From the IMG/VR virus record IMGVR_UViG_3300031839_000574, positions 1 through 23,168 of that record: a DNA stretch of 23,168 nucleotides; one strand, written 5' to 3'. The notes beneath the pieces are model-generated. The model worked only from the letters and a program-made list of their open reading frames with translations, did no database searches and had not been told where the DNA came from. Shown in pieces: positions 6,302-16,300 of the stretch. Position 1 is the stretch's first letter. Each line of letters opens with the position of its first letter. The translations under genes were made by a program, and so were the position numbers. This DNA is from a virus.

Positions 6302-6332
6302 TTGTGGGAAAGAATTTTTTCTCATATATTTG
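6302..6332 (+). promoter_or_regulatory. Bacteroidota-type promoter with internal near-palindrome
   Basis: A -33-like TTG (6302-6304) is followed after 20 bases by TATATTTG (6325-6332), a perfect match to the -7 consensus TAnnTTTG. Between them lies GGGAAAGAATTTTTTC (6306-6321). Its last 14 bases are an inverted repeat with one mismatched pair, and the identical 16-mer occurs in the promoter at 15392-15422. A palindrome between the two promoter boxes is where a repressor would bind. Confidence 0.7.
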
Positions 6333-6590: not shown

Positions 6591-6618
6591 AGCCATCCAA
6601 TAGGGTGGCTTTTTTTTT
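6591..6618 (+). terminator. Rho-independent terminator
   Basis: AGCCATCC (6591-6598) pairs with GGGTGGCT (6603-6610), 8 bp with one G:T wobble, across an AATA loop; T8 (6611-6618) follows. It ends the 6354 unit. A -7-like TATTTTTG follows two bases after the T-run. Confidence 0.85.
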
Positions 6619-6619
6619 A

Positions 6620-6627
6620 TATTTTTG
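6620..6627 (+). promoter_or_regulatory. -7-like element TATTTTTG upstream of terminase
   Basis: TATTTTTG matches TAnnTTTG and lies 5 bases before ATG 6632, directly after the terminator. No TTTG is found at the expected -33 position, so a promoter is possible but incomplete. If used, the transcript would be nearly leaderless. Confidence 0.35.
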
Positions 6628-6631
6628 TAGT

Positions 6632-6988
6632 ATGGCAAATAAGCAAAATTCGACACTAAAAAAAGCAATGATCGCTGCATTGGAAAAATCCCTTTGCGTT
6701 GTTACAACCGCTTGCAAAACAGTGGGCATTGATAGGCAAACGCATTACAACTGGATGAAGGCAGATCCTGAATACAAAAAGGCGGTTGATGATTTGCAAG
6801 ATATCACACTTGACTTTGCTGAATCACAACTCCACAAGCAAATCAAAGAAGGCAATACAACTGCAACAATTTTCCTATTGAAAACCAAAGGCAAAAAGCG
6901 TGGATACATTGAGCGCAGTGAAGTGCAAATTGATGGTGAAGTTGAAAGCAAAATCATTGAATGGCATCCATCGAAAAAAGAAAAGTAA
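6632..6988 (+). CDS. Terminase small subunit (HTH, phBC6A51-type)
   Basis: 118 residues from ATG 6632, just after the terminator. The N-terminus carries a helix-turn-helix (LEKSLCVVTTACKTVGIDRQTHYNWMKADPEYKKAV) of the type seen in phBC6A51-family small terminases. It is followed by a helical segment (DFAESQLHKQIKEGNTTATIFLLKTKGKKRGY) that in this family ends in the same KTKGKKRGY-like motif. The small subunit binds the packaging site and hands DNA to the large subunit. The gene overlaps the large-subunit gene by 28 bases, as expected for the pair. Confidence 0.85.
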   Translation: MANKQNSTLKKAMIAALEKSLCVVTTACKTVGIDRQTHYNWMKADPEYKKAVDDLQDITLDFAESQLHKQIKEGNTTATIFLLKTKGKKRGYIERSEVQIDGEVESKIIEWHPSKKEK

Positions 6989-15325: not shown

Positions 15326-15339
15326 CACAATCAATGAAA

Positions 15340-15372
15340 GGGGTGAGCATATTCGTTCACCTCTTTTTTTTT
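15340..15372 (+). terminator. Rho-independent terminator after the capsid gene
   Basis: GGGGTGAGC (15340-15348) pairs with GTTCACCTC (15355-15363), 9 bp with two G:T wobbles, across a six-base loop; T9 (15364-15372) follows. It separates capsid transcription from the downstream small-gene unit. Confidence 0.85.
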
Positions 15373-15391: not shown

Positions 15392-15422
15392 TTTGGAGGG
15401 AAAGAATTTTTTCCTATCTTTG
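15392..15422 (+). promoter_or_regulatory. Consensus Bacteroidota promoter with shared near-palindrome
   Basis: TTTG (15392-15395), 19 bases, then TATCTTTG (15415-15422): both boxes and the spacing match the Bacteroidota sigma-A consensus. The spacer contains GGGAAAGAATTTTTTC (15398-15413), identical to 6306-6321 at the earlier promoter. It drives the 15451 small-gene cluster, 28 bases downstream. Confidence 0.8.
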
Positions 15423-15450: not shown

Positions 15451-15567
15451 ATGAAACGGAAAATTGAAAACTTTATTTTTGACTGTATTATATATTTGGC
15501 AGTGTTTGGTGCAATGTGTACCTTTTGTCAACTAATGGCTCACGCTGATAAATGGATGGGATTATGA
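15451..15567 (+). CDS. 38-residue membrane microprotein
   Basis: I start at ATG 15451 (MKRKIENFIFDCIIYLAVFG). The same frame is open back to 15334, but that would run through the terminator and promoter. One hydrophobic helix spans about residues 8-30 and includes two cysteines (MCTFCQLMAH); the C-terminus is short (ADKWMGL). It is the first gene after the strong promoter. The next gene overlaps its stop (ATGA). No family recognised. Confidence 0.55.
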   Translation: MKRKIENFIFDCIIYLAVFGAMCTFCQLMAHADKWMGL

Positions 15568-15719
15568 AAAAGAAGGAAACAAAAATCAACAAGGGATTAC
15601 TCGGGTGGCTTTTCTTTTTAGTTGGCGCACGTACAATTTACCTTTTCAATGATACTTTTACGGGGGTTTTTTTGATCCTCATTGGATTTACAATGATGCT
15701 AAACAGAAACGAAAAATGA
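15564..15719 (+). CDS. 51-residue two-segment membrane microprotein
   Basis: ATG 15564 overlaps the previous stop (ATGA) and the frame ends TGA at 15717-15719, overlapping the next start. A lysine-rich N-terminus (MKKKETKINK) precedes two hydrophobic stretches (GLLGWLFFLVGARTIYLF and GVFLILIGFTMML) with a short FNDTFT turn between them and a charged end (NRNEK). This predicts a membrane hairpin with both ends inside. Function unknown. Confidence 0.5.
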   Translation: MKKKETKINKGLLGWLFFLVGARTIYLFNDTFTGVFLILIGFTMMLNRNEK

Positions 15720-15853
15720 AACATTTGGATGCAGATTACAAAAGATATTTACAACTGTTGGATGCAAAGGAATTTGGCAGATTGCCATTATCAAAACAAT
15801 TGATGGTGTTAAAGGAACTCGGGGAACTCGAGAAAAAAATTGCTCAATCTTAG
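15716..15853 (+). CDS. 45-residue small soluble helical protein
   Basis: ATG 15716 overlaps the preceding stop (ATGA); TAG at 15851-15853. The product is probably almost all helix (MKHLDADYKRYLQLLDAKE, then LPLSKQLMVLKELGELEKKI) with regularly spaced leucines, so it may dimerise. It is the last of three coupled small genes and is followed by a terminator. No recognised family. Confidence 0.5.
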   Translation: MKHLDADYKRYLQLLDAKEFGRLPLSKQLMVLKELGELEKKIAQS

Positions 15854-15886
15854 GGCATATTTTCATAGTTTGTTTTAGTTGAAAAG

Positions 15887-15915
15887 GGCAATCATTTTTG
15901 GTTGCCTTTTTTTTT
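15887..15915 (+). terminator. Rho-independent terminator
   Basis: GGCAATC (15887-15893) pairs with GGTTGCC (15900-15906), one wobble, six-base loop ATTTTT, then T9 (15907-15915). It closes the three-gene cluster. The next gene starts only 13 bases later, so it needs readthrough or its own nearly leaderless promoter. Confidence 0.85.
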
Positions 15916-15928
15916 GTACTTTTATTAT

Positions 15929-16300
15929 GTGGATACAAATCAACGGGGTTGCTTTGCGGAATATAAATTCGGCACAATAGCAATGCAAAATGGATTCAAT
16001 GTGTCAATGCCATTGCTTGATGCATCACCTTATGATGCCATAATTGAAAAGAATGGGCAACTTTTCAAGATCCAAATCAAATATATTTCTGAAGATCGTA
16101 AAAAAAACAAAAGTAGCATTCACCTTTCATTGACCAGAACGGGAAAAGGGTATTTGGAAAAATACGTTGATTACTTTGCAATCTACTTTGTTGAATTGGA
16201 TGGGTTTTATATTATTAAGAATAAAGGGCAAAAAGCGATAAGATTATCAACAACGGGAATATATAAAGATAATTTCAATAACTTTGCATTAATTCTGTAA
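15929..16300 (+). CDS. PD-(D/E)XK endonuclease (group I intron/homing-endonuclease-associated type)
   Basis: 123 residues from GTG 15929 (MDTNQRGCFAEYKFGTIAMQ if read with initiator Met); no in-frame ATG precedes the core, and farther-upstream TTGs lie in the terminator. Core pattern: E in CFAEYKFGTIA, D in MPLLDASPYDAIIEKNG, and Q-I-K in FKIQIKYI, then a beta-rich tail (YFAIYFVELDGFYII). This matches the small PD-(D/E)XK proteins related to the I-Ssp6803I homing endonuclease. It has terminators on both sides and sits between capsid and connector genes, so it looks like an independently mobile element. Whether it cuts specific DNA is unknown. Confidence 0.75.
   Translation: MDTNQRGCFAEYKFGTIAMQNGFNVSMPLLDASPYDAIIEKNGQLFKIQIKYISEDRKKNKSSIHLSLTRTGKGYLEKYVDYFAIYFVELDGFYIIKNKGQKAIRLSTTGIYKDNFNNFALIL

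Follow-up and report, generated by a model that had tools for sequence, protein, structure and literature searches.

A near-palindrome as probable operator common to the early operon and two accessory-gene cassettes in uncultured Bacteroidota phages

The operator of phage 434 is a 14-bp site in which conserved 4-bp arms enclose a freer, A/T-rich centre of 6 bp. Indirect readout of the central operator bases has been described in both 434 and P22 (PMC3317979). Operators of another kind are the L5-type stoperators of mycobacteriophages, asymmetric 13-mers that number more than 20 per genome, depend on their orientation, and are predicted to bind a repressor monomer (PMC9283540). Many sites of this type are not at promoters. 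Moron loci are accessory genes of prophages that are often highly expressed in lysogeny (PMC7067206).

Here we describe a 14-bp near-palindrome in the uncultured phage represented by IMG/VR contig IMGVR_UViG_3300031839_000574, the entire record of which (23,168 bases) is referred to below as the window. We consider it likely, from sequence comparisons, that the element is an operator for a Cro-like early repressor, which would autoregulate the early operon and switch two cassettes of small genes with it. Like Cro and CI of 434 and lambda, the candidate regulator is a small protein with a predicted Xre-type helix-turn-helix (HTH) fold whose gene lies behind its own operator, and the 14-bp site shares with that of 434 the conserved 4-bp arms and the freer A/T-rich 6-bp centre. 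Unlike in 434 and lambda, the operators are spread over ~17 kb, on an early promoter and on two cassette promoters in the late region. Neither a divergent repressor gene nor an OR/OL pair was identified, and the carriers are uncultured phages with Bacteroidota-type promoters. The L5 system is similar in that a single repressor has several sites dispersed through the genome, at promoters and in intergenic gaps among other places, but the sites described here are near-symmetric, occupy three places that are all promoters, and differ between clades in the orientation of their core.

The cassettes in turn resemble morons, being small variable genes among late genes with a promoter and terminator of their own (judged by sequence signals only), with cargo swapped among close relatives and one clean empty slot (L102 versus L089). 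They differ from morons in that no integrase was found and in that their promoters carry the operator of the early operon, which argues against lysogenic expression independent of the lytic programme. Taken singly, Cro-like protein, operator, and accessory cassettes should be familiar to a specialist; together they would resemble a Cro regulon of the 434/lambda kind that also takes in moron-like cassettes. The unusual point is the linkage of late-region cassettes to an early operator, which recurs, with another shared element, in one phage of a second clade.

Two promoters with a probable operator and their cassettes

The window carries on its + strand a replication/recombination module and terminase, portal, capsid, and tail genes, some of them named by sequence inspection. 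Comparison with relatives indicates that the early region is missing, since the record starts inside a RecB-like gene. A blastn search for named phage relatives gave no match, and in a protein search for such relatives all matches were below 60% identity. Relatives were gathered by terminase and capsid searches, and the larger contigs were read whole. One contig of 35,483 bp (G005; loci L227 and L228) contains the capsid-to-tail region twice, with differing cargo in the post-capsid slot, and is probably a circular genome of ~27.5 kb read beyond its start across two strain variants.

The 16-mer GGGAAAGAATTTTTTC is present on the + strand at exactly the two positions reported in an earlier sequence-only reading of this DNA, and its 14-bp core, GAAAGAATTTTTTC, is, as described there, an inverted repeat in which a single pair does not match (positions 5/10). 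Both copies are also situated where that reading placed them, between the -33 and -7 boxes of a Bacteroidota-type promoter (Table 1), for which the -7 consensus is TAnnTTTG (PMC9723704). The operator is absent from other probable promoters in the window, for instance those at 6620, 8146, 13377, and 21101. The first of these, a TATTTTTG box, is a probable late promoter with a leader that is almost absent: the start codon of terS follows 4 nt past the box, which itself lies 3' of a terminator. Most relatives with a TerS of only 57-68% identity still keep this arrangement, and it suggests an almost leaderless late terS transcript.

Table 1. Positions of operator copies, promoters, cargo genes, and terminators in the window
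Feature	Position	Strand	Remark
Cassette 1 promoter: TTG 6302-6304, 20-nt spacer with operator, TATATTTG 6325-6332	6302..6332	+	
Operator copy 1 (site 1), GAAAGAATTTTTTC, 14-bp near-palindrome in 16-mer 6306-6321	6308..6321	+	
Cassette 1 cargo gene, 71 aa	6354..6569	+	no Pfam match
Intrinsic terminator ending cassette 1 (8-bp stem and T-run)	6591..6619	+	conserved in relatives
Operator-free TATTTTTG box just before terS start codon (ATG 6632)	6620..6634	+	conserved in relatives
Terminator after major capsid gene (13-bp stem and T-run)	15336..15372	+	upstream insulation of cassette 2
Cassette 2 promoter: TTTG 15392-15395, 19-nt spacer with operator, TATCTTTG 15415-15422	15392..15422	+	
Operator copy 2 (site 2), GAAAGAATTTTTTC, in 16-mer 15398-15413	15400..15413	+	
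Cassette 2 cargo, ORFs 15451-15567 (38 aa), 15564-15719 (51 aa), 15716-15853 (45 aa)	15451..15853	+	
Terminator ending cassette 2 (14-bp stem and T-run)	15881..15917	+	

What had been called isolated small-gene units are better described as interchangeable cargo cassettes, apparently insulated by terminators within the late region. The order before terS is operator promoter, differing small genes, hairpin, operator-free TATTTTTG box, and terS; after the capsid gene it is terminator-like hairpin, operator promoter, phage-specific small genes, and second hairpin. Unrelated small genes occupy the position of the cassette 1 cargo in other relatives, and in other phages further unrelated ORFs are found between the cassette 2 promoter and its three small ORFs. 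In the loci examined, the cargo of the two slots could be grouped into 31 ORF families. Almost all of those searched had no known function; the exceptions are a protein similar to C5 cytosine methylases and a single weak match resembling a restriction endonuclease. In the clean empty slot, cassette 1 (1,014 bp with operator promoter, cargo, and terminator) is wholly absent: the flanks of L102:4135 and L089:8625-9658 are ~90% identical, the L102 junction falls in a T-run, and the L089 unit lies between two T-runs.

Two further features of the cassette 2 neighbourhood deserve mention. A PD-(D/E)XK endonuclease-like gene (15926-16300; Pfam PF11645, E=9e-16) adjoins the cassette in the window and is present in relatives too. 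In a pair of more distant relatives (L231, at G007 C1:2970-3390, and its counterpart L233), two extra TANNTTTG boxes are found between the capsid terminator and the site 2 promoter, preceding apparently non-coding stretches with inverted repeats that are possibly small structured RNAs.

Conservation of the probable operator at three places

Exact identity of the 16-mer is in itself weak evidence, since 43% of dinucleotide-shuffled windows also hold at least one repeated 16-mer (mean 0.7), and it was dropped as an argument; the window itself contains five different repeated 16-mers. When all viral contigs were scanned for the exact 16-mer, 71 stretches were recovered, about half of them at the same promoters in relatives of the window phage and the other half without promoter context. 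The case for an operator rests instead on conservation in relatives.

There the core GAAA-N6-TTTC is found at three places: the early-operon promoter (site 0), the promoter before the pre-terS small genes (site 1), and the promoter right after the capsid gene (site 2). Six close relatives carry it at all three, always on the coding strand. The sequence-only reading had found no third copy, which holds for the window (none with up to two mismatches) but not for relatives, whose third copy lies ~1.3-2 kb upstream of the gene in which the window begins; it is missing from the window because the record lacks the early region.

Column conservation over motif-picked sites is biased, and counts were therefore anchored on genes (capsid, terS, HTH) and not on sites chosen by the motif. 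Relatives keep the palindrome along with the promoters, so that the outcome named in the sequence-only reading as refuting it did not occur: GAAAN6TTTC is present in all 25 post-capsid regions of close relatives (0.6 of 23 in shuffles) and in 20 of 22 pre-terS regions, the two exceptions being L079, with only 532 bases upstream, and the empty slot of L102. Upstream of the HTH gene the core was found at 25 loci, representing 16 distinct sequences. The composite GAAAN6TTTC+TANNTT[TA]G, in which a -7 box begins no more than 4 nt after the operator, is expected ~0-0.02 times per genome; every close relative has two to four on its coding strand and none on the other. In more distant relatives (TerL 58-68% identical), the copy at the early promoter cannot with confidence be assigned to the motif seen at the other two places.

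Across sites the core takes the forms GAAAGAATTTTTTC, GAAAAAATTTTTTC, GAAAAAAT[C/G/A]TTTTC, GAAAGATTTTTTTC, and GAAAAAAAATTTTC. The outer arms, GAAA and TTTC, are constant and the centre is variable, with all four bases occurring at position 9 of site 2, a pattern that would be expected of a site for a dimeric HTH protein. In the clade of the window (clade A), the operator directly abuts the -7 box at site 0 (gap of 0 nt), and the two are separated by 3 nt at site 1 and by 1 nt at site 2; because the distance varies in this way, the operator does not count among the constant elements of the promoter.

In a second clade (clade B; capsid 82-85% identical), the phage G015 has promoters before the HTH gene, before terS, and after the capsid gene that all share AAATTAAAA[AT]AATTCTTT. 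Its 33.8 kb contain this element exactly three times, and the placement relative to the -7 box is unlike that in clade A. Other clade B contigs match this element less well, and G015 is thus one clear case and not a general law. The 12-mer core of clade B, AAAAAATTCTTT, is the reverse complement of the clade A core AAAGAATTTTTT; the core is forward in 15 of 23 clade A regions and reversed in 20 of 25 clade B regions (~0.1 in shuffles). Such a flip is tolerable for a near-symmetric protein-binding site, and should not be tolerated by an RNA or a directional promoter element.

These observations also bear on the idea that the element is a feature of the core promoter, an A/T-rich spacer that raises strength and has been selected at strong promoters with no dedicated regulator. 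It is indeed A/T-rich, the T-runs upstream of it resemble UP elements, and the genomes are G+C-poor, and part of the conservation of the A/T-rich core could reflect DNA bending or promoter strength. As a full account we regard this as quite unlikely, given that only three promoters per genome carry the element although others exist, that the outer G and C are kept while one inner base takes all four letters, that the distance to the -7 box varies, and that the core is reversed between clades. A pac site for TerS was also considered and is unlikely, as the copies sit on promoters at three distant places.

Should a host transcription factor read the site, cassettes and early genes would follow the state of the host, and the -7 boxes do agree with the sigma-A type of the host. 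Among 84,980 species genomes scanned, in contrast, 102 stretches were recovered, one per contig, across many phyla, with no Flavobacteriia regulon visible from the record titles, and the shared element differs between phage clades. We hold this reading to be very improbable.

A candidate regulator at the early promoter

Site 0 is followed directly by the gene of a 61-aa HTH protein (MEFNTYFNSELERLELTRKKVCQALGMTIPTLRSRVNNCGTFQVDEIKKLQSLGFDLNRLI in L240, encoded at 195-377), which is absent from the window's own record. The gene is first in the early operon not only of close relatives but also of those whose TerL is no more than 58-68% identical, and homologues of its product are also encoded on clade B and C contigs. 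The presence of a dyad operator with conserved arms at the gene's own promoter, the third copy of the element, makes the protein a plausible regulator, and the near-palindrome is probably its control switch, common to the early genes and to both cassette slots. A single repressor for both units had been proposed from the window alone; conservation favours one repressor, and its scope is to be widened from two units to include the early operon.

An AlphaFold model of the protein (pLDDT 91) shows a four-helix HTH fold, with helices at residues 3-14, 18-25, 29-37, and 44-52. Its Foldseek neighbours include Stl, fragments of the lambda and 434 repressors, SinR, HipB, and C.BclI, at E ~0.2-0.8 with no PDB match below E=0.1, so the predicted fold points to family resemblance only. 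The PHROG family 'transcriptional repressor' was matched marginally (E=0.027), no Pfam match exceeded the cut-off, and PDB sequence searches returned nothing usable. A ParB-like gene located immediately 5' of site 1 was considered as a source of the site reader and rejected, its product matching only the ParB N-terminal domain and nuclease/partition families.

The mechanism that we favour is as follows. GAAA-N6-TTTC would be the operator of this phage-encoded Cro-like protein, which, as the first product of the early operon, would be made early. A dimer would bind to its own promoter and to both cassette promoters and, seated between the -33 and -7 boxes, would block RNA polymerase, shutting down the early operon and both cassettes together. 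The cassettes would in this way be timed like early genes through the common operator, though late genes surround them. Binding, dimerisation, repression, and early timing are all steps that we infer. Repression is preferred on account of the location of the site, between the boxes or abutting the -7 box.

The same protein might instead activate, the three promoters forming an early or middle class that it switches on, its own promoter included through a positive loop. Regulon membership would then be identical, and it is chiefly the early promoter that speaks for activation: its -7 box is TATATTAG or TATATTTG, and no clear -33 TTTG is seen at the usual distance. A further A/T-rich stretch, AAATAAATTTTTTC, is present at this promoter in G001-G003, G005, and G010. 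Located 25 nt 3' of site 0, past the -7 box but before the start codon of the HTH gene, it looks like a second operator of weaker form. MerR-type activation from within the spacer requires a larger protein and an over-long spacer, whereas the spacers here are 19-20 nt; an operator between the boxes or 0 to 3 nt from the -7 box is in an occluding position, and a positive loop would still need basal activity. Activation is on balance unlikely.

A different role for a repressor would be that of the immunity repressor of a temperate, perhaps plasmid-like, phage, with the three sites as lytic operators. The Cro/CI-like fold would suit such a role, as would the ParB-like gene immediately 5' of site 1. 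The relatives gave no match to a tyrosine or serine integrase family, and no motif-bearing prophage turned up among the 84,980 species genomes scanned. Both results lower the likelihood of an immunity repressor, though the phage might still persist in a plasmid-like state. A regulator encoded first in the operon that it controls is, moreover, typical of Cro and of autoregulators, while immunity repressor genes are usually divergent, and the HTH gene is placed first in the operon that it would control. We give this version little credence.

Implications for the phage family

With these results, an uncultured family of Bacteroidota phages gains a testable circuit of one regulator gene, one operator, and three promoters. 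Two cargo slots are marked, and their small genes, nearly all without a family match, become candidates for host takeover or counter-defence. In its broadest form, which we put forward tentatively and with less than even confidence, the proposal is that the 61-aa Cro-like protein runs a three-promoter regulon, that the two slots in the late region, fixed in place and insulated, hold exchangeable, early-timed genes for host takeover or counter-defence, and that the slot operators track the regulator of each clade. If this is true, operator and slot position alone would predict the location of such genes in many uncultured phages.
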